IMG/VR virus record: IMGVR_UViG_3300035659_000038
Location: 1 to 43,140 of that record
Strand: one strand, 5' to 3'
Length of the DNA: 43,140 nucleotides
From: a virus
In this document: positions 7,797 to 43,015 of the stretch, one piece after another
Layout: each line of letters opens with the position of its first letter
Position numbering within the stretch: the stretch's first letter is position 1
Translations under genes and position numbers: made by a program
The notes under the pieces: model-generated
The model's input: only the letters and a program-made list of their open reading frames with translations
Databases searched by the model: none
Told to the model about the DNA's origin: nothing

Positions 7797-8014
7797 TGAC
7801 TGAAAAAGAAATAGATAGTGTATTAGATGACTTTATCAAATCTCTCAAGAGACAACACAGATTAGAAGAATGCGTAAAGGTACTGCTAAAGGCTACTGAT
7901 ACTGGAACTATTGTAGCAATCAGGTTTTATCTTCAAAATCTAAAACAAACCACCATGTCGAAAAAAACATCATATCGAACATTCACTTCTCGGAGAGGCA
8001 AATGTGCTCAGTAG
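7796..8014 (+). CDS. Small helical protein of unknown function
   Basis: A 72-residue protein. ATG 7796 is chosen because AGGAG lies about eight bases upstream and it overlaps the preceding stop (TAATG); the frame is open to an ATG at 7772. The first 40 residues look helical and charged (EKEIDSVLDDFIKSLKRQHR), and the end is basic (SYRTFTSRRGK). The last 13 bases overlap the next gene. Confidence 0.6.
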   Translation: MTEKEIDSVLDDFIKSLKRQHRLEECVKVLLKATDTGTIVAIRFYLQNLKQTTMSKKTSYRTFTSRRGKCAQ

Positions 8015-8325
8015 GTTATTGTAAGCAGTTCAATGCCTGGAACCATAAAAAAAACAAACCTTACAAGGTTTGCCAGTATCATAAAGATAAGCAGACAGCC
8101 CATAACAAAACTCTTTGGACAAAATATCGAAAGCCCAAGTTCAAGATCAATACCATTAAATGGAGGGTAGCAGGGCTCTGCCCGTATTGTGGTCATCCAA
8201 GGGCACCAGGTAAAATAAGGTGTGCCAATCATATAAAGTGGAACAATGAATATCAAGCAAGAAGAAGATCAAATCGTAAGCGAATGTCAAGCGGGGTGTC
8301 AAAACTCTTGGAAGGTCTTTGTTGA
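8002..8325 (+). CDS. Zinc-binding protein paired with a sigma-like gene
   Basis: A 107-residue basic protein with GGAGAGG upstream of ATG 8002. It has an N-terminal Cys/His group (C2, C7, C24 in NKPYKVCQYHK) and a second group in GLCPYCGHPRAPGKIRCANH. A long Arg/Lys tail (YQARRRSNRKRMS) suggests nucleic acid contact. The gene at 41979 shares the layout: an N-terminal Cys site, W-N-x-K-x-NKPY-x-x-C, then G-x-C-Y/x-CG-x5-G-x-x-C. Both lie immediately 5' of a sigma region 2-like gene, so the two proteins may work together. It overlaps that sigma-like gene by 80 bases. Confidence 0.7.
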   Translation: MCSVGYCKQFNAWNHKKNKPYKVCQYHKDKQTAHNKTLWTKYRKPKFKINTIKWRVAGLCPYCGHPRAPGKIRCANHIKWNNEYQARRRSNRKRMSSGVSKLLEGLC

Positions 8326-8665
8326 TAAACATCAGCAAGCTTTATTAGAGTTCATTAAGGTAAGGCTGCCACCTGGATATGAGGCAGAAGATGTTGCCCA
8401 AGATAGTTGGCTCTGGGCTTATAAGAAGATAAACAAATACCCAGTAGAAAAGTTCATAAACAAAGTATTTCAGCACGCAAAGGGGCTTTGTATTGAAAAG
8501 TGGCGTTTATTTCAAACAGATAAAATCAAGTATTCTATTGAGGATAGAAAACAATGGATACACGAACTTCTTGATTTGAGGACGATAGATCCTTTGAGAA
8601 GAATGATTATACAAGAGGCAATAGATCAGTACATAGCAAAGTATGGTCCTATTGATTTGGAATAA
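8246..8665 (+). CDS. Sigma-70 region 2-like protein lacking region 4
   Basis: A 139-residue protein. Residues about 8-40 (IVSECQAGCQNSWKVFVDKH and LLEFI) match the ECF sigma N-terminus and region 2.1; residues 46-61 (EAEDVAQDSWLWAYKK) match region 2.2, the core-polymerase contact, and residues 65-92 the 2.3/2.4 part. The expected C-terminal region 4 helix-turn-helix is absent; the protein stops after a short helical linker. ATG 8246 keeps the N-terminal helix intact despite a weak ribosome site, so coupling to the upstream zinc protein is likely. Role inferred: redirecting host RNA polymerase. Confidence 0.72.
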   Translation: MNIKQEEDQIVSECQAGCQNSWKVFVDKHQQALLEFIKVRLPPGYEAEDVAQDSWLWAYKKINKYPVEKFINKVFQHAKGLCIEKWRLFQTDKIKYSIEDRKQWIHELLDLRTIDPLRRMIIQEAIDQYIAKYGPIDLE

Positions 8666-8879
8666 ACTCTGGAGCACCAGCAAGCACAAGCACCTCAAGA
8701 GCAGAACTCGGCTCAACACAATCATAGGGCAAAGAAGATAAAGATGCTATTGGACCTCTCCAATATTTATAAAGAATACTCCAAACAAATAACTGATTGT
8801 TATAAACAGCGAATACACTATTACACCCTATTGACCTCAATTCAGCATTGTTCTTGTAGTATTTTACTTCTGTGTTCAT
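8649..8879 (-). CDS. Minus-strand small protein of unknown function
   Basis: A 76-residue frame starting four bases after the stop of the gene at 8884-9033 and reading towards the sigma-like gene, whose 3' end it overlaps by 17 bases. The sequence is uncharged and mildly hydrophobic (FVWSILYKYW, ALEVLVLAGAPEF). The tight spacing behind a gene with an excellent ribosome site is the main support. No family recognised. Confidence 0.5.
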   Translation of the reverse strand: MNTEVKYYKNNAELRSIGCNSVFAVYNNQLFVWSILYKYWRGPIASLSSLPYDCVEPSSALEVLVLAGAPEFIPNQ

Positions 8880-8883
8880 TGTT

Positions 8884-9033
8884 TCACTCGCAATTATATT
8901 GATCTATTGCTATTTGGATACAAGGACAAGGGCATTTGATAGCGTGATAGATTTTATGGTCTTCCCACTTATAACATAACCCTATAAGCACAGGTCCCCA
9001 TTGACCATCCTCCGTTATTTCCCTTTTATCCAT
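8884..9033 (-). CDS. 49-residue minus-strand mini-protein with CPCPC motif
   Basis: The complementary strand carries AAGGAGGTAAAG followed at a good distance by ATG (9033) and a 49-codon frame ending TGA at 8884-8886. The peptide has a Cys-Pro-Cys-Pro-Cys motif near its end (IKCPCPCIQIA). The near-perfect Shine-Dalgarno sequence makes this convincing despite its size. Together with the next gene it forms a short minus-strand unit running against the surrounding operons. Function unknown. Confidence 0.6.
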   Translation of the reverse strand: MDKREITEDGQWGPVLIGLCYKWEDHKIYHAIKCPCPCIQIAIDQYNCE

Positions 9034-9093
9034 ATTCACCTTTCTTTACCTCCTTATCAACAAGGCTGATAGTGTCAGCATTAGGAGTGTTAG

Positions 9094-9099
9094 ATTATA
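9094..9099 (-). promoter_or_regulatory. Candidate -10 element for the minus-strand pair
   Basis: On the minus strand the hexamer TATAAT lies about 60 bases upstream of the ATG at 9033. A TTGACT lies further upstream (9129-9124), but the 24-base gap is too long for a standard sigma-70 promoter, so only the -10 match is claimed. Confidence 0.35.
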
Positions 9100-9142
9100 C
9101 CCAAATAAATGGGGTTATTAGTTAGTCAAGAGGGAATAGGTA

Positions 9143-9478
9143 ATGCCAGATAGGACAAACTGGGTGAGTTGTCTGGGCTGCGTGGTCCAGCCATTTGTGC
9201 CTTTCGGCGTGTCAGCCACCGCGTTATTTCTAACTTGGGTTCTCACTTCTATTCTTCTCTTATTCCTGATTTGGAACTCCCGCCGCCCTCCTAATGCTGA
9301 ACATTCCTTTGGGCAACGACAGAAACCAACTAAAAACTTGTTCTCTACTATATACGTTCTATACCACGCCTTTTCACCAAAAATCTTTTATTTATTTTTT
9401 GGAAGACATTTTTCAAAAACAGCCGATAATAGAAATATTGAGACAACAATACGAAAGGAAGAAAATGGAACACCCTGA
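9143..9478 (+). CDS. Putative single-pass membrane protein
   Basis: A 111-residue frame starting at ATG 9143 after AGAGGGAATAGG. Residues about 22-44 form a strong hydrophobic helix (ATALFLTWVLTSILLLFLIW) followed by an Arg-rich stop-transfer (NSRRPP), giving an N-out, C-in topology. The first 130 bases look richer in GC than the surroundings. Past codon 50 a competing frame (open from 9270, ATG 9294) also looks protein-like, so the C-terminal half is uncertain or there has been a frameshift. Confidence 0.5.
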   Translation: MPDRTNWVSCLGCVVQPFVPFGVSATALFLTWVLTSILLLFLIWNSRRPPNAEHSFGQRQKPTKNLFSTIYVLYHAFSPKIFYLFFGRHFSKTADNRNIETTIRKEENGTP

Positions 9479-9566
9479 AAATGAACAAGTTATAACAAAA
9501 GGCAAGCTTGCGGAAGTTAGTTGGACACCAGAAGACCAGGCCGAGGTCGAAGATGATCAAGACTAA
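9465..9566 (+). CDS. Short acidic protein
   Basis: ATG 9465 follows AAAGGAAG and opens a 33-residue acidic peptide ending TPEDQAEVEDDQD. The same frame is open back to 9270 and its upstream part (FIYFLEDIFQKQPIIEILRQ) looks like real protein, so the gene may be longer (ATG 9294, 90 aa) or the product of a frameshift from the 9143 gene. Confidence 0.45.
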   Translation: MEHPENEQVITKGKLAEVSWTPEDQAEVEDDQD

Positions 9567-9636
9567 GTATAGATTGCCGACTTGGTCCGAAACACAACGA
9601 CAACGGGCAATCATAAAAACATTAAGGAGGTATTTT

Positions 9637-10104
9637 ATGGTGAGAACACAAATAGGACCTAACACAGAGATTGATCAGGAATATGGGATTTGGCTTTATG
9701 AAAAAATCAAGAAGGGACCAAAGGCAGGTCAGTTTGCTTGGAAACTAACAGGGCAACTCAAAAAGATTTTCAATACCTGTAGCCAAAAGGCAGAGTTGGT
9801 TTTTTGTCTAAAACCAGGTGTGAAGTACTTTTATACTGCTCAGTGTCTTGGATTGAGCAAAGATATGGTGGATAGCCTTAAACAATACAACAACAACCAG
9901 TTAGTAGTGGGGTGGGTATATTATCCACAAATACATCCTGTCGATAAAAATGGAAACTCAACAGGTCCTTCATACGACGGAATCATTTCTATTGATAAAA
10001 TACGGCAGCAACAAACAAAAACATACGGAGGCAACTCAATCGAATACTGGACATCAATATCGGCGTGGAAGCCTCACACACTAAAAAGCGTACAGGATAT
10101 TTAG
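9637..10104 (+). CDS. Phage protein of unknown function
   Basis: A 155-residue protein starting MVRTQIGPN. ATG 9637 has AAGGAGG six bases upstream, the best site nearby; the frame continues upstream to an ATG at 9553 which overlaps the previous gene and would add 28 basic residues. The protein has a hydrophobic beta-rich centre (KAELVFCLKPGVKYFYTAQ, QLVVGWVYYPQIHPVD) suggesting a compact fold. No family recognised. Confidence 0.7.
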   Translation: MVRTQIGPNTEIDQEYGIWLYEKIKKGPKAGQFAWKLTGQLKKIFNTCSQKAELVFCLKPGVKYFYTAQCLGLSKDMVDSLKQYNNNQLVVGWVYYPQIHPVDKNGNSTGPSYDGIISIDKIRQQQTKTYGGNSIEYWTSISAWKPHTLKSVQDI

Positions 10105-10114
10105 GAGAGATATT

Positions 10115-10462
10115 ATGATGAAGTTATTGAAAGTATGTGATAAATGTCGAGAAGAAGTAGACGAACTTATAACCTATCGCATATCTGATGAGGGACTTGT
10201 CTTGGCAACTACAAAACCAAAGATAGAACTATGCGAGTATTGCCAAGAGATACTTGAACAATGGCTACAAAGATCAGTTGTTTGCTTGGACGAGTTGGCC
10301 TGTCTATTTCAAGAATGGTTTGAAAAGGGGCTTGAAGACACCAAGTATAAAATACAGAATCATGTATCGTTTATGGAACAACCAGAAGAGTTTCAGGATG
10401 CTATGAGGTTTGTTGCTCGAAAGGCAATAAAGTGGATAATGAATGGAGAAAACAATGACTAA
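10115..10462 (+). CDS. Zinc-binding helical protein of unknown function
   Basis: A 115-residue protein with AGGAGAG upstream. Residues 8-11 (CDKC) and about 41-44 (CEYC) form a four-Cys zinc-ribbon-like pair; the rest is acidic and helical (CLFQEWFEKGLEDTKYKIQ). ATG 10118 is an alternative start three bases on. It overlaps the next gene by eight bases. Confidence 0.7.
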   Translation: MMKLLKVCDKCREEVDELITYRISDEGLVLATTKPKIELCEYCQEILEQWLQRSVVCLDELACLFQEWFEKGLEDTKYKIQNHVSFMEQPEEFQDAMRFVARKAIKWIMNGENND

Positions 10463-10715
10463 AGCATATTTCGTACAAGATGAAGGTTGGATTTATCACC
10501 AAGCAGACAAAGGTCAAATATGGGTATATCCATTTGATGGACCACGAGCCCATGTGTGGTACCTTGTAAGTCCGATTGATACAGAAACGATCTTCGAAAT
10601 GCGGGAAGAGCTTCCAGGTGTGCCCTTTAGTACACTTGAATTACACCTGATGATTGGTTTGCCTATTGACATTTTAGATGTAGATTCTCCTAACCCTTTG
10701 GTGTTAGATATATAA
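10455..10715 (+). CDS. Small phage protein of unknown function
   Basis: An 86-residue acidic protein. ATG 10455 is chosen over ATG 10443 because GGAG (10445-10448) then acts as the ribosome site. It is Trp/Tyr-rich in the first half (GWIYHQADKGQIWVYPFDG). It is the last gene before an intrinsic terminator, so it closes this plus-strand operon. Confidence 0.65.
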   Translation: MTKAYFVQDEGWIYHQADKGQIWVYPFDGPRAHVWYLVSPIDTETIFEMREELPGVPFSTLELHLMIGLPIDILDVDSPNPLVLDI

Positions 10716-10775
10716 GGTCCTTTCCTGGCTGCTCAGCAACAGCATACTAAAAGGCTGATTTGTGTTCTTCCTTGG

Positions 10776-10805
10776 GGGAGCAGCGTAAAACCTGCTCCCT
10801 TTTTT
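10776..10805 (+). terminator. Rho-independent terminator
   Basis: An 8-bp perfect stem GGGAGCAG / CTGCTCCC with an 8-base loop is followed at once by six T. It lies 60 bases past the last plus-strand gene of the early block and ends that transcript before it runs into the convergent minus-strand operon. Confidence 0.88.
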
Positions 10806-10825
10806 ATTTGCCTCATACTTCATTG

Positions 10826-10975
10826 CTACTGGTCCTCCTCGTTAATACGCTTTGCCTCTGGACTTAATTCTACCTCCTCGATACCCTCAATATGGATACT
10901 CTCTATATTTTCGGCATCCACTTCAAAATCATAGAAGTTTCCAGAACAATATAATCTAACATTAAATGTCTTCAT
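10826..10975 (-). CDS. 49-residue acidic minus-strand protein
   Basis: On the minus strand ATG 10975 follows GAAAGGAAG and opens a 49-codon frame (MKTFNVRLYCSGNFYDFEVD...) ending TAG at 10826-10828. It begins with a beta-strand-like segment and ends with a very acidic helix (EEVELSPEAKRINEEDQ). It is the last gene of a six-gene minus-strand operon. The N-terminal pattern is loosely like that of its upstream neighbour (MTYYVSGKYTLNIILYVEAS). Function unknown. Confidence 0.6.
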   Translation of the reverse strand: MKTFNVRLYCSGNFYDFEVDAENIESIHIEGIEEVELSPEAKRINEEDQ

Positions 10976-10989
10976 TGTCTTACTTCCTT

Positions 10990-11232
10990 TCAATACTCTA
11001 CATCACTTGGAGCACAGGAACATTGTCCATCACTAACGCTGCCACCACAATCTTCACATATAAGTTCGACTTGTGCGTCTTCTCCAACGAACGCATTATT
11101 GAGGAGGTCTGCTGGTTCGCCAACAATATCTCCTTCACCCTTGTAGGCCTTTTCTCTTGCCTCTTCCTCCGAGGAAGCCTCAACATATAGAATGATGTTT
11201 AGTGTGTATTTGCCTGATACATAGTAGGTCAT
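10990..11232 (-). CDS. Small acidic protein with C-terminal Cys cluster
   Basis: An 80-residue protein with AGGAGGAAAGT before its ATG. It starts with a beta-strand (YTLNIILYVEASSEEEAREKA) resembling proteins that carry the short 'V.A.s.eeA...A' repeat found in small phage proteins, and ends with CEDC...CSC, a likely zinc site. Function unknown; fifth gene of the minus-strand operon. Confidence 0.7.
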   Translation of the reverse strand: MTYYVSGKYTLNIILYVEASSEEEAREKAYKGEGDIVGEPADLLNNAFVGEDAQVELICEDCGGSVSDGQCSCAPSDVEY

Positions 11233-11687: not shown

Positions 11688-11696
11688 ACTTTCCTC

Positions 11697-12586: not shown

Positions 12587-12898
12587 ATGGCTAAAAACAT
12601 TTCATTCTATGATCGTTTCTATGTTAAAGCAGACAAATCTAAAGATGCTAAAATAGGAACTTTACAAGACGAGATTGTACTTTACAAGGTGTTATTAAAA
12701 AGATACTTAGAGTCGTATGACTCTGACCCAAAGTACATTAGAGCCCTAACCAATCTTGCTGATACGATCAAAGAACTTGAAATCGCACACGCCAAATTAA
12801 CTGGAACTTCCAATGAGGGTCCAACAGAGTTCATAGTAGAGGTCCGAAGGATTTGTAAGGCAGTAGGACAATCAATCTGCCCTGAGGAACCTAAATGA
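12587..12898 (+). CDS. Small protein upstream of TerL, possible small terminase
   Basis: A 103-residue protein. ATG 12587 follows AAGGAG by nine bases. It is helical and mixed-charge (DEIVLYKVLLKRYLESYD, IRALTNLADTIKELEIAHAK) ending in KLTG and a short Cys-containing tail. It occupies the usual small terminase position, with its stop overlapping the TerL ATG, and its size is at the low end for TerS. No helix-turn-helix is clear, so small terminase is an inference from position. Confidence 0.55.
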   Translation: MAKNISFYDRFYVKADKSKDAKIGTLQDEIVLYKVLLKRYLESYDSDPKYIRALTNLADTIKELEIAHAKLTGTSNEGPTEFIVEVRRICKAVGQSICPEEPK

Positions 12899-14235
12899 CC
12901 ACACTTGCCCTCCTTCCAGTCTCCCCTCACGGGTTAAATGCCAGACAGCAAATCCGAGCGTTTTGGGAATCGACTTCTCGGTTTATTATTGTTCCAAGTG
13001 GTCGTCGTTCCTATAAGACCCTGGTAGCCAAAAAGAAGCTGATCTTTCAAGCAGTGTTGAACTGCCATGATGCTGCCTCTGCTTGGTATGTCCCAATCGA
13101 CAAGCCTAACTATTTCTGCTGTGCCCCTACATCAGACCAAGCCGACCGGCTTTTCTGGGATGACCTATTGGCAATGATACCCAGAAAGTGGATAAAGCAC
13201 ACCAATAAGTCAGCACACTTTATGGAGCTTATACACGGACCGCGTATTTATGTGCTTGGTGTTGATGCCCCAGAACGATTAGAAGGTATAGTATGGGCAG
13301 GAGGAATAGGTGATGAGTTTGGCAACTGGAAAGAAGACGTTTGGACAGCACATCTAAGACCAGCATTATCAAGTCAGCAGTTCCAGCCGTTTATGTGGTT
13401 TCTGGGAGTTCCAGAAGGAAGAAATCACTATTACAAGTTATGGATGGAAGCAATAGATAAACCTAACTGGGCAAGGTTCCACTGGATAGCAGAAGAGTGC
13501 CTTCCACCTGAAGAAATAGAAGAAGCCAAAGCCTCGATGGATGAGAATACATATGCCCAAGAGTACTTAGGGTCTTTTGTCAACTTCCAAGGAAGAGCGT
13601 ATTATAAGTTCGATACTAAGAAACATTGCCGTAAAGTTCCATATAATCCCGAGAAACCGCTGATTATTTGTCAAGATTTCAACAATTCTCCTGGTGTCGG
13701 TACTTTCCTCCAAGAACAGGAGGACCCCGACCACTTCAAGTGGACCGGACAACTTGGTGAAGTCTATGTCGCTCGAAATAGTAATACTGAGTTGATCACA
13801 GGTAAAATCATTCAAATGTGGAGGGGTCATAAAGGTCGCTTTCATATGTATGGGGACGCAACAGGTGGTGCCCACAAATCAAATAGTGCCAAATCAGACA
13901 TAGAGATTGTTGAAGGAATGATGAGGCACGCATTTCCTGGTCGCGTTGATATGATGTACAAGAACTACAACCCGTTCGAACGGGACAGAGTCAATGCGGT
14001 TAATAGTAGGCTCGAGAATACCAAAGGTGAAATAAGGTTTTACATTGACTCTGATAAGTGCCCAAGGTCAATAGAGGACTTTGATAATGTTTCAGTCAAC
14101 GATAAGGGCGAACTTGACAAGAAGATAGCACCAATGCTAACCCACCTTTCGGATGCCACTGGATACTACATTGCTGACCGATATCCTATAATTACATATA
14201 ATGAACATGGTTATGATAACACCTTCTGGAAATAG
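12895..14235 (+). CDS. terL: Terminase large subunit
   Basis: A 446-residue DNA packaging motor protein. The ATPase has a divergent Walker A at 34-42 (PSGRRSYKT), a Walker B ending GGIGDE at 136-141, and a coupling-motif region GVPEGRN at 171-177. The nuclease domain follows with the three expected acidic residues: D261 (IICQDFNNSP), D321 (MYGDATGG) and D420 (THLSDATGYY). Length and order are standard. It pumps DNA into proheads and cuts the concatemer. Whether it is a cos or headful enzyme cannot be read from the sequence. Confidence 0.93.
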   Translation: MTTLALLPVSPHGLNARQQIRAFWESTSRFIIVPSGRRSYKTLVAKKKLIFQAVLNCHDAASAWYVPIDKPNYFCCAPTSDQADRLFWDDLLAMIPRKWIKHTNKSAHFMELIHGPRIYVLGVDAPERLEGIVWAGGIGDEFGNWKEDVWTAHLRPALSSQQFQPFMWFLGVPEGRNHYYKLWMEAIDKPNWARFHWIAEECLPPEEIEEAKASMDENTYAQEYLGSFVNFQGRAYYKFDTKKHCRKVPYNPEKPLIICQDFNNSPGVGTFLQEQEDPDHFKWTGQLGEVYVARNSNTELITGKIIQMWRGHKGRFHMYGDATGGAHKSNSAKSDIEIVEGMMRHAFPGRVDMMYKNYNPFERDRVNAVNSRLENTKGEIRFYIDSDKCPRSIEDFDNVSVNDKGELDKKIAPMLTHLSDATGYYIADRYPIITYNEHGYDNTFWK

Positions 14236-15921: not shown

Positions 15922-16082
15922 TTGAGAAGACCGGGCCCACAAGTTGGATTATCGTTTCCTTACACAAAGATCCTAAAACAGGAAAGCGTAAGGTGTTAGG
16001 ACATTTCTCTTCACACGAAGCAGCTGTAAAAAGGCTCCGTCAAATAGAGGCTTATAAGCACGGATGGAAACCAAACAAATGA
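15918..16082 (+). CDS. 54-residue basic protein of a common phage family
   Basis: ATG 15918 overlaps the portal stop (ATGA) and opens 54 codons. The core WIIVSLHKDPKTGKRKVLGH then FSSHEAAVKRLRQIEAYKH matches a small phage family with a beta-strand, Gly-x-F turn and an 'A.kRLrQIe.fKh' helix that I recall near head genes. Function unknown. Its end overlaps the endonuclease VII start. Confidence 0.65.
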   Translation: MIEKTGPTSWIIVSLHKDPKTGKRKVLGHFSSHEAAVKRLRQIEAYKHGWKPNK

Positions 16083-16528
16083 AGACCTGTTCTAAATGTA
16101 AGACAGATCAAGATTTAGACCAGTTTATAAAATCCAGTGGTCAGTGTCGCACTTGTCGTAGAAGAAGAAACTTAGTTTGGAGACTTGCTCATCCCGAAAA
16201 GGTGAAGTATCAGGCAAGTGATAAGACAAGAGAAAGAAGTAGGGTCTATTGGGAGAATGGTGGTAAAGAGGTTGCCCTAATGACCCGATATGCCCTTACA
16301 AAAGAAGATTATGATAGGCTGTTTCAAAGTCAAAATGGTCAATGTGCTATTTGTTTTACAGATTTAGATAAATATACTCACATAGACCATAGCCACGAAA
16401 CAAGTGAAGTTCGTGGGTTATTATGCCAACTCTGTAATAGGGGGTTGGGACATTTCAAAGACGATGTTGAACGATTATCAAACGCAATAAATTATTTAAT
16501 CAAGCACGGCGGAAAGATGACAAGGTAG
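16079..16528 (+). CDS. Endonuclease VII-type HNH nuclease
   Basis: A 149-residue protein. An N-terminal zinc knuckle (CSKC at 4-7, CRTC at 23-26) is followed by RLAHPEKV, then the endonuclease VII core: YALTKEDYDRLFQSQ, CAIC at 89-92, the catalytic IDHSHETSEVRGLLC at 102-116, CQLCN and GLGHFKDD. Phage T4 gp49 of this family resolves branched DNA before packaging. The start at ATG 16079 overlaps the previous stop by four bases; ATG 16064 is an alternative. Inside the head operon it may trim branched DNA or act as a homing-type nuclease. Confidence 0.88.
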   Translation: MKTCSKCKTDQDLDQFIKSSGQCRTCRRRRNLVWRLAHPEKVKYQASDKTRERSRVYWENGGKEVALMTRYALTKEDYDRLFQSQNGQCAICFTDLDKYTHIDHSHETSEVRGLLCQLCNRGLGHFKDDVERLSNAINYLIKHGGKMTR

Positions 16529-18508: not shown

Positions 18509-18910
18509 ATGTCTTATACAGAGAAACTCAGAGTTAGGACTATTGTCCAAGAGAACTCTGGGATACCTCCCCGTTTACGTGATTTCTTCAAACAGGTAGT
18601 GGCGTGGTTGCCTGCTCTAACGAGCACTACGACAAGTACGACAAGTACGACATCAAGTACAACAAGTTCTACTACGAGTAGCACCACTTCGAGTACAACA
18701 TCGAGTACAACATCTACTACAAGCACCACGAGTAGTACAACAAGTTCTACGACTTCGAGCACTACCAGCACTACCAGCACGACTTCAAGTACTACATCTT
18801 CAACCACGTCAACCACAACCAGTACGACCACGAGTACTACGAGTAGCACGACAAGTTCAACAACTTCGAGTACTACGTCAAGTACCACGTCGAGTACGAC
18901 AACATCATAA
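18509..18910 (+). CDS. Paralogue of the preceding gene with 96-residue Ser/Thr tail
   Basis: A 133-residue protein with GGGAGG upstream. Residues 1-37 repeat the preceding protein (MSYTEK...IPPRLRDFFKQVVAW, then LPAL). Residues 38-133 are exclusively Ser and Thr, arranged mostly as TTS or TTSS units and ending TTTS. Codons for Thr (ACA, ACC, ACG, ACT) and Ser (AGT, AGC, TCN) are mixed, so the tract is kept at protein level. It looks like a mucin-type stalk. With glycosyltransferases in the same genome, O-glycosylation is plausible. A gene duplication followed by tail expansion explains the pair. Confidence 0.75.
   Translation: MSYTEKLRVRTIVQENSGIPPRLRDFFKQVVAWLPALTSTTTSTTSTTSSTTSSTTSSTTSSTTSSTTSTTSTTSSTTSSTTSSTTSTTSTTSSTTSSTTSTTTSTTTSTTSSTTSSTTSSTTSSTTSSTTTS
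18620..18907 (+). repeat. Ser/Thr-coding degenerate tandem repeat
   Basis: 288 bases of degenerate (ACN ACN AGY/TCN) units within the 3' part of the 18509 gene. Unit lengths alternate between 9 and 12 bases. Stretches such as AGTACGACAAGTACGACA recur with small changes, so length variation between isolates is expected. Confidence 0.85.
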
Positions 18911-34270: not shown

Positions 34271-37200
34271 ATGTCTATTGCGTTCAATCAAGTACAACTT
34301 GATGCCTTCCTTATTGCCAAACAGCGATATATAACTATTCGTTTTGGCACAATCCTCACACCCGCAATCCTTACAGGGACCTGTGATTGGGGTTGCTTTA
34401 TAACCAAGGGAAATAATACCGCTCAGTTTGTGTCTTGGATTGCCAATGGACATCCTTATAACTTTGTGTGGGTAGCAACAACAGAAGATCAAACTTGTGC
34501 GTTCAATGAGAACACAGGACCAGTTGGGGCCACAGGACCTCAAGGCATTCAAGGTGAAACTGGGATAAGTGTTGGAGCTACTGGAATAGGAATCCAAGGG
34601 GCTACGGGGCTTACAGGTTCAAAGGGAGATACAGGTGTTCAAGGGCTACAAGGTAATACAGGAGTACAAGGCGGTATTGGACCAGTAGGATCCAAAGGTA
34701 ATACTGGCTTACAAGGTCTTACCGGACTACAGGGTTCAAAGGGAGATACAGGTGTTCAAGGGCTACAAGGTAATACAGGAGTACAAGGCGGTATTGGACC
34801 AGTAGGATCCAAAGGTAATACTGGCTTACAAGGTCTTACCGGACTACAGGGTTCAAAGGGAGATACAGGTGTTCAAGGGCTACAAGGTAATACAGGAGTA
34901 CAAGGCGGTATTGGACCTCAAGGTTCAACAGGAGTTAGAGGATCAACAGGACCACAAGGAGTAAAGGGTGATACAGGAAGTATTGGACAGCAAGGCTCTA
35001 CGGGTGTTCAAGGTATTACTGGACTGGTTGGAAACACAGGAGCCCAAGGTAGTACAGGCGTACAAGGAACTACCGGTATATCAGGTTCCACAGGACCTCA
35101 GGGGACAAGTGGAACAATGGGGACCACTGGTTTACAAGGAGATCCAGGAAGTATTGGAGAGACTGGAATACAAGGTCTCCAAGGAAATCCAGGTAGCCAA
35201 GGAAGCACAGGAATACAGGGAGCTACTGGAACAGCAGGCATCCAAGGAAATACAGGATTGGATGGAGTTCAGGGACAAACAGGAGTAAGGGGTGAAACCG
35301 GTATACAAGGTTCTACTGGTATTGTTGGACCTGCTGGCACGACTGGTATTCAGGGTACTACTGGTGCTGATGGTGTCCAAGGTCAAACTGGCATACAAGG
35401 TCAAACAGGGGTAAAAGGAAATGATGGTAATACAGGAATCCAAGGAGCCACAGGAGTTCAAGGCACTACAGGACTTATTGGTGCGACTGGAACTTCTGGA
35501 ACAAATGGTAATGATGGCTCCACAGGTATTCAAGGGACAACAGGAGTTGGTAGTCAGGGCACAACAGGAATCCAAGGTCAAACTGGCACACAAGGTCAAA
35601 CAGGTATCCAAGGAATAACCGGTGCTGATGGTTATGTTGGTGCTGATGGACAAACAGGACCTCAAGGAATAACTGGTCTTCAAGGCCTTACGGGAGTTCA
35701 GGGTACCACTGGCACACAAGGGCTACAAGGCGATACTGGTCTCCAAGGGCAAACTGGTCTTCAAGGCACTACAGGAGTTCAGGGTACCACTGGCACACAA
35801 GGGCTACAAGGCGATACTGGTCTCCAAGGGCAAACTGGTCTTCAAGGCACTACAGGAGTTCAGGGTACCACTGGCACACAAGGGCTACAAGGCGATACTG
35901 GTCTCCAAGGGCAAACTGGTCTTCAAGGCACTACAGGAGTTCAAGGGCAAACAGGCATCCAAGGAGTAACAGGAACAGCAGGCGGAGCAACAGGATTACA
36001 AGGTGTAACCGGTGAGGCTGGCACAATCGGTATAGATGGTCAAACTGGGCTACAAGGAGTAACCGGTGTAAAGGGAACAACCGGTATTCAAGGTGTCACA
36101 GGAACATTTGGTGGAACTCTTTCATTACAAGCAGCATATAATGGTGGAAATACAATAGGATGTTCTGGTATTGCTGTCCAAATGTCAAGCACTAATGGTG
36201 CCAATATATTAGAAATCAACTATGGAAAGTATGTTCAGGACATTTTACATACCAATCAAAACCTCAATGGAACTAATCCACCAAATGGAATAACATTGGA
36301 GTTTGGAACAGATTTTTCTGGAAATACCCATCTAACAACACCAGTCAAACATGTCGCTTGTAGATTTAGATACACAATAGGTGGAACTCCATATTATACA
36401 AACTACATAAATTTTGATACTGGTGGTGTCATAACAGGAACCTATATAGATATTTATGGTGGTAGTTATTGCACCGATAGTGGAAACTGGTATATTTTAT
36501 TTACAACTCCACCTGATGTATCAACCAATATTACTGCCGACTACACAAGCATATCCTATTTTGACCCAGTAGCAATAACAATCAACAACACTAATGGAGA
36601 TTTAGGAAGTTGTTATGATATGAGAGGCACCGACGGCAACTGGTGGATAAAACCAGATGGAAGTGCTTCATTTACTTTAGTAAATGAAATAGAGGCAGGT
36701 GAAATTTGGGCAACTGCTGGTTGCCGTCTCATTTGGCAGGCACAGCAAAAATACTTTGCTGCCCACGGGGACTATGCGGTTACTCTAACTAACCTTGGGC
36801 CTGCCCCTGGAGACAATTTTATAGATGTTCTGCTTGCTGCGGGCAACAAGTATGGTTATCAATACACTTACGATTATAATCAAGGGTCTTGGACACTCGT
36901 AGCCGACCCTATTGTCCTCAATATCACAGGAATAAACTCATTTTATATAGACCAAGATAATATTATTCACTACAACTCAAGTGGTGCCGCAACCATTAGC
37001 AGCCCACTCTGGTTTGATTTAGATTATTCGAATGCTACGGGTGCTCAAGGTGCCACAGGTATTCAAGGGCAAACTGGTCTCCAAGGTTCAACTGGATTAC
37101 AAGGTCCAACGGGTATTCAGGGTCTTACGGGTCTGCGGGGTGAAACTGGCTTACCAGGTTCCCAGGGACAAACTGGTATTGATGGTATTCCAGGAAATAC

Positions 37201-38803
37201 GGGAATAGATGGTATTCAAGGTGAAACAGGCATACAAGGTAATACTGGTATTGATGGAGTTCCTGGAACAACTGGAATACAAGGAGTTACGGGACTTACA
37301 GGTGCAACAGGTATTCAAGGAGATCAGGGAAATACTGGAATCCAAGGACAAACTGGTCTTGGTATTCAAGGCGAGACTGGAATCGGGACCCAAGGAGTAA
37401 CTGGTCTAATCGGTGAAACTGGTATTCAAGGAGTTCCAGGTGCGACAGGTGCAGCACCAGATAATCAAGGAACAACTGGTATTCAAGGTAGTACTGGTCT
37501 TCAAGGTGCCACTGGTATTGGATATGTTGGTAGTGATGGGCAGACTGGAATACAAGGAGTAACAGGTGCAGGAGTTCAAGGTGTAACAGGACTTCCTGGA
37601 CCACAAGGCACCACAGGAACCGCTGGAACAATTGGTATAGATGGTGTAACTGGAATCCAAGGTGAAACTGGCATTCAAGGAGTAACAGGAACTGGAACTG
37701 CTGGTAGTGATGGTGCCACAGGTATTCAGGGTCTAACTGGTAGTCAAGGACTAACGGGTATTCAGGGTATTACAGGACCTGCTAACTTACAAGCTGCGTA
37801 TGATGGTGGTCGTGATATTGCGATGACCGCAACTGGTATTGGTATCACACAATCAGGAACACAATCAGCAGTAAGTATTACGACAAGCAATACCACTTCA
37901 CAAACTGCTGAACTGATTACATTATCTGGTAATCAAACTGGTCTATACATCAATAAGGCTAATACGGGAAATGCTGATGCTGCTTCTATTACAAATGCTG
38001 GCACAGGAAATGCCCTACTAATCACACAAAATGGTGAAGGGTATGGACTTCAAATCACAAGTGCCTCAACAACTGCCAATGCTGCCATATTCAAAGCAAG
38101 ATATGGTCCAATCTGCCGTATGGATGCCGCTACGGGATACGCATTGAATGTTTATGACCTCAACTCTACTATTGAACCAAATACCAACTATGGATTATTC
38201 CGCTTATTGAAGAATGGAACAGGTGCCCAGCCCGCTGCCTATTGGTTCAATCAAGGCACTGGACCCTGTTTGAAGATTGCCCAAAATGGAAATGGCATCG
38301 CTATTGACTGCCAAAAGACCGCCACTGGTGCTGGCACAATAATCAACATTGTCAACTCTGGCATAGGTAAGGGAATAGTAATCAACCAAGTATCAACTGC
38401 TACAAATAGTGGTATAGCATTAGATATCGTCCAATCGGCAGCAGTGGGTGCTGTAACAATCCTGAAAAACTCCACAGGTGTTGGTGTCTTGATTGCTGCC
38501 ACCGATAGCGGCACGGGTGGATGTATCACATTATCACAAGTTGGTTCGGCAAGTGCCATCGTAGTAAATCAAAGTCATACAGGAACTTCTAATACCATTG
38601 TTGTAAATAATAGTGGAGGGGCACCAGGATTAGTTTTGAATAATACAGCCACTACTAGTTCAGCATTGAGGATTTCAACCGCTATTACAATAGCAGCAAG
38701 CAACTCAACTGGAACAACAGGAGATATTTGTTGGAATGCCGATTATTTATATGTTTGTGTAGGAACTAATAACTGGAACAGATTTGCTAAATCTGCTTGG
38801 TAA
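34271..38803 (+). CDS. Giant collagen-like tail fibre
   Basis: A 1510-residue protein with AAGGACGAG upstream. Order: N-terminal domain about 1-80; Gly-X-Y collagen block about 81-616; a globular beta domain starting LQAAYNGGNT (about 617-920); a second collagen block about 921-1170; then a second LQAAYDGG element and a C-terminal region of repeated Gly/Asn/Thr beta text, ending with WNADYLYVCVGTNNWNRF. Y positions are mostly Thr or Gln (GNTG, GVQG, GATG). Such proteins trimerise into a triple helix. It is the likely receptor-binding or adhesive fibre. Two internal DNA repeats indicate recent length change. Confidence 0.9.
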   Translation: MSIAFNQVQLDAFLIAKQRYITIRFGTILTPAILTGTCDWGCFITKGNNTAQFVSWIANGHPYNFVWVATTEDQTCAFNENTGPVGATGPQGIQGETGISVGATGIGIQGATGLTGSKGDTGVQGLQGNTGVQGGIGPVGSKGNTGLQGLTGLQGSKGDTGVQGLQGNTGVQGGIGPVGSKGNTGLQGLTGLQGSKGDTGVQGLQGNTGVQGGIGPQGSTGVRGSTGPQGVKGDTGSIGQQGSTGVQGITGLVGNTGAQGSTGVQGTTGISGSTGPQGTSGTMGTTGLQGDPGSIGETGIQGLQGNPGSQGSTGIQGATGTAGIQGNTGLDGVQGQTGVRGETGIQGSTGIVGPAGTTGIQGTTGADGVQGQTGIQGQTGVKGNDGNTGIQGATGVQGTTGLIGATGTSGTNGNDGSTGIQGTTGVGSQGTTGIQGQTGTQGQTGIQGITGADGYVGADGQTGPQGITGLQGLTGVQGTTGTQGLQGDTGLQGQTGLQGTTGVQGTTGTQGLQGDTGLQGQTGLQGTTGVQGTTGTQGLQGDTGLQGQTGLQGTTGVQGQTGIQGVTGTAGGATGLQGVTGEAGTIGIDGQTGLQGVTGVKGTTGIQGVTGTFGGTLSLQAAYNGGNTIGCSGIAVQMSSTNGANILEINYGKYVQDILHTNQNLNGTNPPNGITLEFGTDFSGNTHLTTPVKHVACRFRYTIGGTPYYTNYINFDTGGVITGTYIDIYGGSYCTDSGNWYILFTTPPDVSTNITADYTSISYFDPVAITINNTNGDLGSCYDMRGTDGNWWIKPDGSASFTLVNEIEAGEIWATAGCRLIWQAQQKYFAAHGDYAVTLTNLGPAPGDNFIDVLLAAGNKYGYQYTYDYNQGSWTLVADPIVLNITGINSFYIDQDNIIHYNSSGAATISSPLWFDLDYSNATGAQGATGIQGQTGLQGSTGLQGPTGIQGLTGLRGETGLPGSQGQTGIDGIPGNTGIDGIQGETGIQGNTGIDGVPGTTGIQGVTGLTGATGIQGDQGNTGIQGQTGLGIQGETGIGTQGVTGLIGETGIQGVPGATGAAPDNQGTTGIQGSTGLQGATGIGYVGSDGQTGIQGVTGAGVQGVTGLPGPQGTTGTAGTIGIDGVTGIQGETGIQGVTGTGTAGSDGATGIQGLTGSQGLTGIQGITGPANLQAAYDGGRDIAMTATGIGITQSGTQSAVSITTSNTTSQTAELITLSGNQTGLYINKANTGNADAASITNAGTGNALLITQNGEGYGLQITSASTTANAAIFKARYGPICRMDAATGYALNVYDLNSTIEPNTNYGLFRLLKNGTGAQPAAYWFNQGTGPCLKIAQNGNGIAIDCQKTATGAGTIINIVNSGIGKGIVINQVSTATNSGIALDIVQSAAVGAVTILKNSTGVGVLIAATDSGTGGCITLSQVGSASAIVVNQSHTGTSNTIVVNNSGGAPGLVLNNTATTSSALRISTAITIAASNSTGTTGDICWNADYLYVCVGTNNWNRFAKSAW
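34616..34918 (+). repeat. 117-bp exact tandem repeat in the fibre gene
   Basis: The unit starts with GGTTCAAAGGGAGATACAGG at 34616, 34733 and 34850, so the period is 117 bases or 39 residues (13 Gly-X-Y triplets). Two full copies and a partial third appear identical by eye, indicating recent duplication or unequal recombination. Confidence 0.85.
35701..35943 (+). repeat. 81-bp exact tandem repeat in the fibre gene
   Basis: The unit beginning GGGTACCACTGGCACACAAG recurs at 35701, 35782 and 35863. The 81-base period is 27 residues (9 triplets). Three copies are nearly identical at the DNA level. Confidence 0.85.
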
Positions 38804-39272
38804 ATCTACCAGTAATAGGATTTCTGGATTTAGGATGGTATTTCATATGTTCAGTATGATTAGCACACAGAACAAGACTTTCAAGCCGATTGTCGGTCTT
38901 GATATGATTGATGTGATGGACCTCTTCCTCTTCGGTGAGGTAGCGTCCAAGATGTGCCTCCATAACGAGAATGTGTTCCCTAACATAACCAAGATAATCG
39001 GTATTAGGATGCGTAGGATTATGAACAATGATATACCCAAGTTTAGACCCTCGTCCCTCTTTACATTGATGTCTTCCACCTTGCCAGTGCCAATGATTGG
39101 AACCAGACATAATCTCACTTTGAGTTCGTGCCGTGATATCAAAACGCTTGAAGAGGATGGAAACTTGTGCTTGGGTCGTATGAAGTTGTTCAGCAATAAG
39201 TCTTTGAGAAAGTCCTTGATTGTAAAGGTCTTGAATAACTTCTTTCGTAAGGTCTTTTCGTGGTGCGGGCAT
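38787..39272 (-). CDS. HNH endonuclease with N-terminal HTH (mobile gene)
   Basis: A 161-residue protein on the minus strand with AAGGAGG five bases before the ATG. Residues 8-45 form a helix-turn-helix (VIQDLYNQGLSQRLIAEQLH, TTQAQVSILFKRF), followed by the HNH core VREHILVMEAHLGRYL and EVHHINHIKTDNRLESLVLC. This is the standard layout of free-standing phage homing-type HNH genes. It converges with the fibre gene and overlaps its last 17 bases, so it is a probable late insertion. Confidence 0.88.
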   Translation of the reverse strand: MPAPRKDLTKEVIQDLYNQGLSQRLIAEQLHTTQAQVSILFKRFDITARTQSEIMSGSNHWHWQGGRHQCKEGRGSKLGYIIVHNPTHPNTDYLGYVREHILVMEAHLGRYLTEEEEVHHINHIKTDNRLESLVLCANHTEHMKYHPKSRNPITGRFTKQI

Positions 39273-39349: not shown

Positions 39350-39610
39350 ATGATTATCAACACACAAGAAGAGTTCATTCAAGCAGGTATGAATAAGGCA
39401 CCAATCATTGAGTTGATGTCTGGAACATACTATGTTGTGGATTATGACATAGACTGGGCACTAAAACTGATAATGAATGCTGGTGCTACTTTGATTAGTA
39501 TAAATGTCAAGGTAGGTGGAATACCAAGGGAAGACTTCACCCATACTTGTGAAGAAGGTGTGAGTATTGGATACTTCAATAGGTATGAAGACCCAGTGGG
39601 TGAAGTATAA
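39350..39610 (+). CDS. Small protein of unknown function
   Basis: An 86-residue acidic protein with GAAGGAAA before ATG 39350. It contains PIIELMSGTYYVVDYDIDWA and LKLIMNAGATLISINVKVGG, a beta-alpha-beta-like layout. The stop overlaps the next ATG (TAATG), so it is coupled to the LamG-like gene. Function unknown; possibly a fibre chaperone by position. Confidence 0.6.
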   Translation: MIINTQEEFIQAGMNKAPIIELMSGTYYVVDYDIDWALKLIMNAGATLISINVKVGGIPREDFTHTCEEGVSIGYFNRYEDPVGEV

Positions 39611-40461
39611 TGGCTATACCTCAAATAGATAACATCATAGCCGCCTGGGACTTCACAAGACTGGCAGTAGGAGATGTAGTATTGGATGTTTCTGGTAATG
39701 GAAATCACCTTACTCATAGTGATAATCTTTATCTACTACGATTGGGTAAGATAGCAAGACACTATGATAATCCAGTAATCTATGTGGGGAATGGAGTGAG
39801 TGTCTCGGGAAATGCTTTTCGTATTGCCCGAACCTCATTCAGCCATAATCTATCACAGGTTAGTTGGAGTATGGCGGGTTGGTTTAGTAGTGGAAGTCAA
39901 TATCAGTATGATGGCTGGTATGGTATCTCACATTGGCAGAGTTGGACCAATATCGGTATGATAGTTGATGTGACAAGCCAGGAAAAGCCACGGGACAAGA
40001 TTGATTTTAGGACTTGGGATACATCTGGCAATACACATATGCTTCAAAGTTCAGTAGTAAATACTGGTGTTGGATGGTATCATTTAGGCATCACATATAA
40101 TCATTCAACAAAAGAAAAAATCACCTACTTCAATGGAAATGTTATAGCACAGGGAACAGCCACGCATAATGCGGATATAAGATGGACAGGTGATTATATA
40201 ACTATACCTGGTATGGCAGGTAATGCCACTAACGCACCATATATAGGTGGTTTAGATACTCAAATAATCACAAATGATGTAATGACACAAGCAGATTTTG
40301 ATGTTTTATATGCCGCTGGTGTTGGTATTGGTTATCAATGGAACGAGTTTGGTAGCAAAATCCAAATCAACGCTGGGGTAGGAACAGGCTATGGCACGAA
40401 AATCCAGATAAATAACACAGATGCTTCGACAGGAATAGGTAAAGACATAGAGGTTATATAA
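39610..40461 (+). CDS. LamG-like lectin domain virion protein 1
   Basis: A 283-residue protein. IIAAWDFTRLAVGDVVLDVS then GNGNHLTH is the signature start of a Laminin_G_3 / concanavalin-like jelly roll, and WSMAGWFSS, WYHLGITYN and YFNGNVI are the matching inner strands. The last 55 residues hold two copies of a K-I-Q-I-N-x-G-x-G-T-G-Y-G-type segment. It likely binds glycans as a receptor-binding or decoration protein. Confidence 0.8.
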   Translation: MAIPQIDNIIAAWDFTRLAVGDVVLDVSGNGNHLTHSDNLYLLRLGKIARHYDNPVIYVGNGVSVSGNAFRIARTSFSHNLSQVSWSMAGWFSSGSQYQYDGWYGISHWQSWTNIGMIVDVTSQEKPRDKIDFRTWDTSGNTHMLQSSVVNTGVGWYHLGITYNHSTKEKITYFNGNVIAQGTATHNADIRWTGDYITIPGMAGNATNAPYIGGLDTQIITNDVMTQADFDVLYAAGVGIGYQWNEFGSKIQINAGVGTGYGTKIQINNTDASTGIGKDIEVI

Positions 40462-40465
40462 TATA

Positions 40466-40753
40466 ATGTCTAAAAAATCATTAGAGGCCTACAACAATGT
40501 CGATTATAAACAAGTCTGGATTGATGCCAATGGACCAATACCCAAAAACTGGGTCGTCCATCACTTGGACCATTGTAAGACCCATAATAACATAAACAAC
40601 CTTATGGCTATGTCTCGTGGGCTTCATATTATTTATCATAGAATAGCCCGATTTTTATCATTACAGGACCTATTTAGATTAGCCGACGGGCTGATGAAAT
40701 ATGTAATAGCCGAACAAAAGAAGAACGACAAGGATGGAAATGGGGTTGTATGA
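40466..40753 (+). CDS. Small HNH-type protein between two LamG genes
   Basis: A 95-residue protein. WVVHHLDHCKTHNNINNLMA and MSRGLHIIYHRIA form the HH...N...H core of a compact HNH_3-type nuclease, with an N-terminal YKQVWIDANGPIPKN typical of that group. It has a weak ribosome site and its stop overlaps the next ATG by four bases. It appears to be a second small mobile gene in the receptor-binding region. Confidence 0.72.
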   Translation: MSKKSLEAYNNVDYKQVWIDANGPIPKNWVVHHLDHCKTHNNINNLMAMSRGLHIIYHRIARFLSLQDLFRLADGLMKYVIAEQKKNDKDGNGVV

Positions 40754-41520
40754 CTATTTCAGCATCTAATGCCTTCGGTTTCGAGGAGGTCATCTCTACA
40801 AGATTTGACTCAATAGGCTCCAATGATCTCACCCCATACTTCGAGAATGGCCGAAGACCAGGTAAGCACAACTATGGGCTGAACGTAGTTGCCAATCAGT
40901 TCTTGGCAGGTGGGCACTTATCAACCAGAGTACAGAATGACGACATCAATCTTCCTATATTGAGTGCGTTTTTCTGGTTCAATAGTGATCTTCCATTGAC
41001 AATCAATACTCTGTTGGCACATAAAAGGTGGGGACAACCAATATGGTCGATAGAGATTGTCGATGGTAAGTTGGTATTCGAAACCAGTGATGGTAATATG
41101 TGCCATTGGCTCGAAACAGCAGAACCAAGTGTCGGAGTAGATCACTTTGTAGGGATTTCACTAAACATTGCTACAAAGCAAAAGTTGCTTTATTTTGATG
41201 GTGCGATCATTGACACAGCGATTGCTCCACATAATGCCATCCCAACTGACCCCGTCGGCATTTCATTTGGGACCTTGGTTGATGGTGGAAGACCCTTTGA
41301 TGGAATGATAGATAGTGCCGTGATTGTTCCTTACATTCTTACATCAGACCAGTGGGATGAAGTTTATGATAATGGAGCTGGAAGAGACATCAGTTATTTC
41401 CTTCCAAAGATCACGAGAAACACCCCGTTTTTCCTTCTAAAACGTGAGAAAATAGAGTTAATGGAGCATTCATACCTCAAGCCGATTGAACGAGAAGAAA
41501 TACCTCAACTCGAGGAGTAA
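40750..41520 (+). CDS. LamG-like lectin domain virion protein 2
   Basis: A 256-residue protein. LSAFFWFNSDLPLTINTLLA, then WSIEIVDGKLVFETSDGN, HFVGISLNIATKQKLLYFDG and FDGMIDSAVIVPYILTSDQW are jelly-roll strands in LamG order. The C-terminal 40 residues hold repeated acidic/basic text (REKIELMEH, EREEIPQLEE) that looks like a linker. It overlaps the HNH gene by four bases. Confidence 0.75.
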   Translation: MTISASNAFGFEEVISTRFDSIGSNDLTPYFENGRRPGKHNYGLNVVANQFLAGGHLSTRVQNDDINLPILSAFFWFNSDLPLTINTLLAHKRWGQPIWSIEIVDGKLVFETSDGNMCHWLETAEPSVGVDHFVGISLNIATKQKLLYFDGAIIDTAIAPHNAIPTDPVGISFGTLVDGGRPFDGMIDSAVIVPYILTSDQWDEVYDNGAGRDISYFLPKITRNTPFFLLKREKIELMEHSYLKPIEREEIPQLEE

Positions 41521-41574
41521 ACAGGCCCAGTGGTCATTTTAGATAGAGAACAAGTCTCTGTGTTGGAGGAGTAA

Positions 41575-41907
41575 ATGTACGAACGAATATTCAAACTTTC
41601 TGGGGAACGCTTTCCTTTACTTGGAAGCATTGTCAATCCAAGAGCCACAAATGAGGTGGTTGTCCTATCGAGCTCTTCTGTCTCTGCCAAAGATAATACG
41701 GGTGCCGATGTCTCAACAACACTTTTAGATCAAACAACAAAGGCTGTCGTTGATCACCCTATTCGTGATGATGGGCAGGATAGTTGCCTCTCGATTAGGG
41801 TCAGAGCAGGTACAACAGCCAAATCTCCTTATATTATAACTTTCACCTTGGCAACTAATCAAGCTAACATTTATCAAGTTGGTTGCCAGTTAGTAGTAAA
41901 AACCTAA
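41575..41907 (+). CDS. Small beta-rich virion-associated protein
   Basis: A 110-residue protein with TTGGAGGAG before the ATG. Ser/Thr/Val strands (EVVVLSSSSVSAKDNTGADV, STTLLD, SIRVRAGTTAKSPYIITFTL) suggest an immunoglobulin-like beta-sandwich, as in phage fibre accessory proteins. It is the last gene before the terminator, so it closes the late operon. Confidence 0.65.
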   Translation: MYERIFKLSGERFPLLGSIVNPRATNEVVVLSSSSVSAKDNTGADVSTTLLDQTTKAVVDHPIRDDGQDSCLSIRVRAGTTAKSPYIITFTLATNQANIYQVGCQLVVKT

Positions 41908-41922
41908 ATATCACCTCCTGTC

Positions 41923-41960
41923 AATAGTAGGGCTTCGTTATTGGAGCCCTATTATTTTGT
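41923..41960 (+). terminator. Rho-independent terminator of the late operon
   Basis: AATAGTAGGGCT (41923-41934) pairs with AGCCCTATTATT (41945-41956), one G-T pair in 12, around a 10-base loop and followed by TTGT with a short T run. It marks the end of the structural transcript. Confidence 0.75.
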
Positions 41961-41978
41961 AAAGATTTTTGGTGTCAA

Positions 41979-42245
41979 ATGTTAGATAACAATGATACAC
42001 ATAGCATGAGCACAGATATTGAAAATCCTTGTATTAGATGTAAAACAAAACTGACTGAATGGAATGAGAAACTCAATAAGCCTTATTCAAAGTGCCCAGA
42101 TTGTCGGCAACTTGATCTTGCCTATGGAAGAAAGATTCGTGCTCGTTATAGACAAGAAGGTAGGTGCTATTGTGGTAGGCAGGTAGCACAAGGCACGATT
42201 TGCCAAGATTGTAGAGACGACAGAACGAAGTATAACCACAGATGA
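41979..42245 (+). CDS. Zinc-binding protein paired with a sigma-like gene, copy 2
   Basis: An 88-residue protein with CIRC (18-21), CPDC (about 39-42), CYC (about 61-63) and CQDC. It shares with the 8002 gene an N-terminal Cys site, W-N-x-K-x-NKPY-x-x-C, and GxCxCGRQVAQGTICQDC compared with CPYCGHPRAPGKIRCANH. ATG 41979 is used; ATG 42006 is an alternative start. The stop overlaps the next ATG (ATGA), so the two are translated together. Confidence 0.72.
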   Translation: MLDNNDTHSMSTDIENPCIRCKTKLTEWNEKLNKPYSKCPDCRQLDLAYGRKIRARYRQEGRCYCGRQVAQGTICQDCRDDRTKYNHR

Positions 42246-43015
42246 AAAATACAGCAGTTAGAAAAGATTTAGACAGGAACGCAGCGGCAAATGCCCTACA
42301 ACAGATACACTCTCTTCCACAACATCGAAAACAATATCAAAGGGATCATAACTACTTCAAAAGACATCCAGAGTTGAAGCCCGATTGTTGCCCTAAATGT
42401 GGAAACACAGAAGATATGACCTTTCATCACCATATCTACGACGGATCGAGAGAAGGGGAATGGGTATGTCGTGATTGCCACGATAAGGAACATGGCTTTA
42501 CCCCTCAACAAAGACCATATTCACCTCTACAAACAAAACAAGTAATCGAGGAGAGTGGATTTAGTGAATGTGTAAAGAAGTATGAAAAGCATGTGTGTAG
42601 GTTTATAAAGTCTCATGTTCGTGATCAACAAGCATCAGAAGAACTTACACAGGATGTACTTATTGCGTTTTGGCAAAATCAGGTGAAGACAGGTTGGCAG
42701 GCTGAACTATCGTTGCCCTCTTATCTGTTTGGTATAGCAGAATATAAAATAAAAGACCACTATAAAGCTATTGTGAAGGGAGAAAAGCAGGTTGAGGCAG
42801 AAAGAGATTTAGATAAGTGGATGGGTAATCCATTGACCCACACCCCTCGTGTAGTAGGTCCTTATGATTATGCCTACCTCAATGAGAAGTATGGTGGTGA
42901 GACAGGACTGGCACTTGGATTTGATAAGAGGGCTTATGTCGAACAGCCGCTAAATCCAACTGGAATACAAGGTCCCAGTGATATAAACAGCACCCAATCG
43001 GGCCCAGTGATATAA
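42242..43015 (+). CDS. HNH-like zinc domain fused to sigma-70 region 2
   Basis: A 257-residue protein. Residues 50-85 form a His/Cys zinc domain (CPKC at 50-53, FHHHIYDG at 61-68, CRDCH at 76-80) like an HNH core. Residues about 110-182 match sigma-70 region 2: KKYEKHVCRFIKSHVRDQ, then SEELTQDVLIAFWQNQ (the 2.2 helix) and LPSYLFGIAEYKIKDHYKAI (2.3/2.4). No region 4 follows; the tail is Pro/Gly-rich. An unusual fusion; likely a transcription regulator. Confidence 0.75.
   Translation: MKNTAVRKDLDRNAAANALQQIHSLPQHRKQYQRDHNYFKRHPELKPDCCPKCGNTEDMTFHHHIYDGSREGEWVCRDCHDKEHGFTPQQRPYSPLQTKQVIEESGFSECVKKYEKHVCRFIKSHVRDQQASEELTQDVLIAFWQNQVKTGWQAELSLPSYLFGIAEYKIKDHYKAIVKGEKQVEAERDLDKWMGNPLTHTPRVVGPYDYAYLNEKYGGETGLALGFDKRAYVEQPLNPTGIQGPSDINSTQSGPVI

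Follow-up and report, generated by a model that had tools for sequence, protein, structure and literature searches.

Two sigma region 2 genes, each overlapping a gene of one zinc-protein family, in an environmental siphovirus-like record

The 43,140-bp IMG/VR record IMGVR_UViG_3300035659_000038, which comes from a bacterial virus in an environmental sample and forms, at its full length, the window analysed here, carries two cassettes in which a gene for a small zinc protein overlaps a following gene for a protein with region 2 of sigma factors. In cassette A, the zinc protein ZnA (107 residues; positions 8002-8325, plus strand) is encoded ahead of SigA (139 residues; 8246-8665, plus strand), and in cassette B, ZnB (88 residues; 41979-42245, plus strand) is encoded ahead of SigB (257 residues; 42242-43015, plus strand). 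A preliminary description of the window had proposed these four open reading frames (ORFs) as two versions of a compact two-part sigma factor, and all four are confirmed at these coordinates. The observation was largely right, although the interpretation placed on it goes beyond it.

Both zinc proteins have two knuckles. ZnA contains the motif WNHKKNKPYKVC (8038-8073) as its first zinc knuckle and CPYCG...C..H (8179-8232) as its second. ZnB contains the motif WNEKLNKPYSKC (42060-42095) within a first knuckle that spans 42030-42104, followed by a second knuckle, CYCG...C..C (42165-42212). Their alignment bears out the shared zinc pattern described earlier, W-N-x-K-x-N-K-P-Y-x-x-C, and shows a second knuckle, G-x-C-x(1,2)-CG-x(3)-A-x-G-x-I-C. 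The C-terminal CxCG..C..C site that had been ascribed to both is literal in ZnB, whereas the last knuckle of ZnA ends in C..H. The two proteins match with a BLASTP E-value of 4e-6 and a Smith-Waterman Z-score of 9.4, and 0 of 2000 shuffles reached their score, so the likeness does not stem from composition alone; judged by this alignment, ZnA and ZnB are distant homologues. ZnA is extremely basic, with 26 Lys/Arg against 3 Asp/Glu, whereas ZnB is mildly basic. Neither protein has a match above the Pfam cut-off or a convincing match to a described family among the Pfam, PHROG and NCBIfam profiles. In a set of 11,423 ORFs drawn from phage loci and the window, they match only each other and, weakly, one further protein, L092 of a large phage, in which the same first knuckle, CRYCHNLTPWNEKAGKPYQIC, is followed by unrelated domains. 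A third member of the family was not found in the record. The HxxxCxxC motif of ZAS anti-sigma factors is absent from both ZnA and ZnB, which speaks against their belonging to that class.

SigA consists of a region 2 of the extracytoplasmic function (ECF) type and a linker, as indicated by Pfam, NCBIfam and ECF sigma factors in the PDB. It scores 24.4 bits (E 2.5e-5) against Pfam Sigma70_r2 (PF04542), for which the cut-off is 24 bits, and matches the ECF profiles of NCBIfam from its N terminus onward (SigW, 6.8e-8; RpoE, model positions 4-133 of 190). It also aligns to the solved structures of SigW and AlgU, and this alignment places regions 2.1-2.4, with the putative core-binding motif EDVAQD, at 8267-8521. 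The C terminus of SigA falls where the first helix of region 4 would otherwise lie. As the protein is too short to hold that region, its absence from SigA, read from the profile alignment, is firm. A six-frame search ruled out that a sequencing frameshift conceals region 4 after SigA, and a lost region 4 was not found in any frame near the gene.

SigB is more complex, as it comprises an HNH-type zinc module, sigma region 2 and an 82-residue tail. The zinc module (CPKCG..HHH..CRDCH; residues 13-86, 42278-42499) had been overlooked, so that the earlier label of region-2-only sigma suits SigA with its linker but not SigB. It matches the phrog_2340 endonuclease profile (E 1.8e-6) and is 46% identical over 41 residues to the endonuclease p30 of phage phiVC8, whose gene sits between the genes for the single-stranded DNA-binding protein and DNA polymerase, and which also ranks high among the viral fold matches of SigB. 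By sequence, the SigB N terminus belongs to the HNH-type zinc family and is a putative nuclease. Whereas phrog_2340 and p30 resemble this N terminus, SigB has the module fused to sigma region 2, and no other fusion of the two was retrieved among the sequences searched. Region 2 of SigB (42572-42766), with the putative core-binding motif EELTQD, scores 31.5 bits (E 1.6e-7) against Sigma70_r2 and 1.9e-10 against TIGR02985, a match confined to region 2. Both sigma-like proteins therefore exceed the Pfam cut-off for region 2, and the ECF models of NCBIfam agree with the earlier assignment. The best AlphaFold model of SigB has a mean predicted local distance difference test (pLDDT) score of 65 and is confident across parts of region 2; Foldseek gave it weak matches (none with E < 0.001), most of the highest-ranking being ECF sigma factors.

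The tail of SigB includes a possible remnant of region 4 (42788-42937), which aligns in collinear order to region 4 of a sigma factor from a Paraburkholderia plasmid (Z 8.0), a protein that was picked as the best match of a 7.3-Gb search. When used alone as a query, the tail had no match in plasmids, phages, the PDB, Pfam or NCBIfam, and against a region 4 profile built here it scored no better than shuffles. Region 4 is thus not detectable in SigB, though its absence is not quite firm, and the earlier statement that neither sigma has a region 4 holds fully for SigA and in this weaker form for SigB.

Six-frame searches of the 43-kb record, which may be a fragment because no end repeats were seen on inspection of its termini, revealed no Sigma70_r4 belonging to a sigma gene. 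The sole match, below the cut-off, was the helix-turn-helix (HTH) of an HNH endonuclease (38787-39272, minus strand), and Sigma70_r4_2 had no match anywhere in the record. ZnA and ZnB likewise have no Sigma70_r4 match in Pfam. A region 4 gene elsewhere, which the preliminary description had named as the finding that would count against it, is therefore not seen in the record, but the record may be incomplete and an HTH protein (7266-7796, plus strand) lies nearby. This protein, a candidate alternative partner or regulator, matches HTH_38 (E 9e-4) and the Tfx family (E 0.002), both below cut-off, and its gene belongs to the run that contains cassette A, two genes upstream of ZnA. As a control, Pfam made region 4 visible in 8 of 10 full-length phage sigma proteins, the exceptions being those of loci L088 and L091, so a region 4 that Pfam does not see is not proof of its absence.

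The overlaps between zinc and sigma genes are as previously described. The SigA start lies 80 bp inside ZnA, and that of SigB falls among the final codons of ZnB (ATGA, a 4-bp overlap); measured from the last knuckle of the zinc protein, the two sigma genes begin at almost the same place. These overlapping starts suggest that the zinc and sigma genes are translationally coupled. ZnA has a good Shine-Dalgarno sequence (ggagagg) 5′ of its ATG, and SigA, by eye, has no strong one of its own. The chance that both Zn genes would stand directly before sigma genes under random gene order is about 6e-4, as estimated by a simple permutation of 57 genes that ignores duplication of the cassettes as units.

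The zinc/sigma pair appears rare among the sequences searched. No sequence in IMG/VR proved closely related to SigA, SigB, ZnB or the ZnA/ZnB profile, although very close records were possibly not covered, and no SigB relatives were found in GTDB genomes. In a tblastn search of 50,697 phage records, SigA had no match and the zinc proteins had chance-level matches only, while SigB matched through its HNH part only, apart from two weak ECF-like records. A DNA pattern for W-N-x-K-x-[NG]-K-P-Y-x-x-C gave two matches, one without a zinc ORF at the site and the other at the N terminus of a large-phage protein without a sigma. Patterns written at the DNA level for the cores of region 2 retrieved only unrelated matches and ordinary, seemingly complete phage ECFs, which have region 4 and lack a zinc neighbour. 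Among 50 whole records related through their terminase, region 2 occurred in five (four above cut-off), none with a zinc neighbour, and the Zn profile matched none of the 50. With none of the four proteins yielding a relative in these searches, conservation cannot test the association of zinc protein and sigma, and the co-occurrence in other phages that had been proposed as a check, though not found, is powerless as a test here.

Two observations concern other phage records. In MW202657.1 (locus L087), the sigma gene annotated as cnrH (8386-8973) starts too late, as an upstream extension of the ORF (8386-9126, minus strand) includes region 2; this sigma has two region-4-like HTH segments. In DQ115812.1 (locus L136; ‘Cyanobacteria phage AS-1’ contig 5), an ORF resembling a bacterial ECF sigma lies in Arg/Ala-rich surroundings and may be sequence from the host or another source that contaminates the phage record.

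Several known systems resemble the cassettes in part. According to the sections of PMC2988020 that concern them, the late sigma factor gp55 of phage T4 has sigma-70 similarity only in domain 2 and is described, together with the co-activator gp33, as a split sigma; gp33 occupies the beta flap, binds the sliding clamp and does not resemble sigma proteins in sequence. SigA and SigB are like gp55 in that sigma similarity, here at the level of sequence, is confined to domain 2 and a separate small protein is encoded next to each, but they differ in being ECF-like and in occurring as two in one record. The same sections do not describe gp33 as a zinc protein, which the neighbours here are, and no homologue of gp33 or of the clamp was identified, no search having been aimed at a clamp gene. 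Passages on the phiEco32 sigma gp36 in PMC8948821 report no homology to region 4, function without a partner, and promoters with a single element, tAATGTAtA, and no −35 element. SigA and SigB resemble gp36 in being phage-encoded sigma-like proteins without a recognisable region 4, and because gp36 works alone, a sigma that lacks this region need not have a partner. Unlike SigA and SigB, gp36 is given no zinc partner in those passages.

In Bacillus subtilis SigO/RsoA, previously offered as the precedent, the region-2-like RsoA partners a sigma-type protein with region 4 (table in PMC10141391; also general knowledge). That two-subunit sigma differs from the cassettes, where the neighbour is a zinc protein and no region 4 partner was found in the record, and T4 gp55/gp33 is the closer precedent. 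ECF (group IV) sigmas, represented by SigW, RpoE and TIGR02985, share the region 2 sequence and fold of SigA and SigB but have the region 4 that is missing from the one and not detectable in the other. The genes for ZAS anti-sigma factors lie downstream of the sigma gene (PMC4960319), whereas those for ZnA and ZnB, which lack the ZAS motif, lie upstream.

The best reading, which we favour tentatively, is that SigA and SigB are ECF-derived phage sigmas that read only a −10 element, with the co-translated zinc protein as a likely accessory. The retained region 2 would dock on host RNA polymerase and melt a −10-like element, and region 4, the −35 reader, would have been lost or nearly lost. The acidic-x-x-Q-D motif predicted to contact the core is intact in both proteins. 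The zinc protein, encoded upstream and strongly basic in cassette A, would most likely act with the sigma as a nucleic-acid-binding accessory, making the two a functional analogue of gp55 with gp33. Polymerase binding, the type of promoter and the joint action of zinc protein and sigma are points that we infer. Two points make us rank an accessory role somewhat above mere proximity: members of a single zinc family stand ahead of both sigma genes, and SigB carries a fused zinc module; the direct fusion of that module to region 2 links zinc and sigma functions in one chain. Reading DNA in place of region 4, as the preliminary description proposed for the zinc protein, is a possible role that finds no support in these results, and phage sigmas lacking region 4, such as gp36, are known to work at promoters with no −35 element. 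We consider it unlikely that the cassettes represent a phage split-sigma family in which a sigma-unrelated zinc protein takes over the upstream DNA contact or flap docking of region 4, twice in one phage and with differing specificities.

A number of results weigh against the accessory reading. The pair was not found in 15 phage sigma loci or in 50 related phage records. The WNxKxxKPYxxC motif also occurs in L092, a protein without a sigma, ahead of unrelated domains, so the first knuckle is not a sigma-specific signature. The structure model of ZnB (pLDDT 59) is of too low quality for interpretation, and the SigB tail might be a degenerate region 4. SigA and SigB have no detectable similarity (Z 1.5-2.1) and so are not detectably duplicates; the earlier view of two cassette copies holds for the homologous Zn genes but not for the sigma genes. 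In 18 upstream regions, a crude motif search brought up no promoter element common to them and nothing above chance for T4-late or phiEco32-like elements, which leaves the suggestion of two versions for different gene classes without support.

The sigma-like proteins might instead act alone as −10-only sigmas, with the zinc proteins as unrelated neighbours of a small DNA-binding or HNH-associated kind. The gp36 precedent fits this, as do the other phage sigma loci examined, which lack a zinc neighbour, and the several small, unrelated Cys-rich ORFs present in the window. However, one and the same zinc family overlaps both sigma genes on the 5′ side, with the low chance expectation given above, and has no further member found in the record; we regard solitary action as somewhat unlikely. 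Both genes could also be decaying remnants of full ECFs such as those of related phages, SigA being cut within the first helix of region 4 and SigB having a degenerate one. The prevalence of region 4 in the control set, the match of SigA to the ECF model as far as the beginning of region 4 and the collinearity of the SigB tail all agree with decay, but both frames are intact and overlap a zinc gene, no frame near SigA holds the lost region, and the tail signal lacks independent support, making this account clearly unlikely.

Region 2 without region 4 suffices for core docking, and the sigma-like proteins might therefore block the docking site of the host sigma without initiating, while the zinc protein regulates them in the manner of an anti-sigma. 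Co-translated zinc proteins beside ECF sigma genes are indeed often ZAS-type anti-sigma factors (PMC4960319). Against this stand the missing ZAS motif, the upstream position of the zinc gene and the very basic character of ZnA, which fits DNA or RNA binding better, and we judge such a block improbable. It is very unlikely that region 4 is supplied by another protein, either the HTH protein at 7266-7796 or one encoded in a missing part of the genome. The former is co-directional with ZnA, and several related records measure 50-84 kb against 43 kb here, but the HTH match is not to Sigma70_r4 and cassette B has no such HTH gene near it.

A phage split sigma is not a new concept, and cut-down phage sigmas are already known; the particular combination of zinc protein and sigma is new. 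Should the zinc protein substitute for region 4, the way in which sigma reads promoters would prove modular and open to rebuilding with an unrelated zinc fold, yielding a compact orthogonal transcription system. Even otherwise, the small set of known minimal phage sigmas gains two divergent members without region 4 from one small siphovirus-like genome, one of them joined to an HNH-type zinc module.

The cassettes lie on either side of a siphovirus-like structural block at about 12.6-41.9 kb, whose terminase (12895-14235) shares 42% identity with its counterpart in an environmental Caudoviricetes genome from Manatee Spring. A rightward gene run that includes DNA methyltransferase genes and, by eye, glycosyltransferase-like ORFs has cassette A at its end. 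The tail-gene run closes with a strong terminator-like hairpin (41928-41959, plus strand; fold −20.5 kcal/mol, z −7.0), which is succeeded by a short T-rich stretch, and cassette B comes immediately 3′ of it. The loop of this hairpin is beyond the limits of the consensus terminator scan.

Other features of the record concern neither cassette. Two neighbouring DNA methyltransferase genes (5320-5895 and 5816-6619) overlap by ~80 bp, 3′ of the run of glycosyltransferase-like ORFs. Three HNH or endonuclease VII genes stand among the structural genes, at 16064-16528, at 40466-40753 and, on the minus strand, at 38787-39272. The capsid gene is followed by an ORF of Thr/Ser repeats (TTSTTSS...; 18509-18910), and a collagen-like protein of 1510 residues (G-x-TG-x-QG; 34271-38803) is probably a tail fibre.

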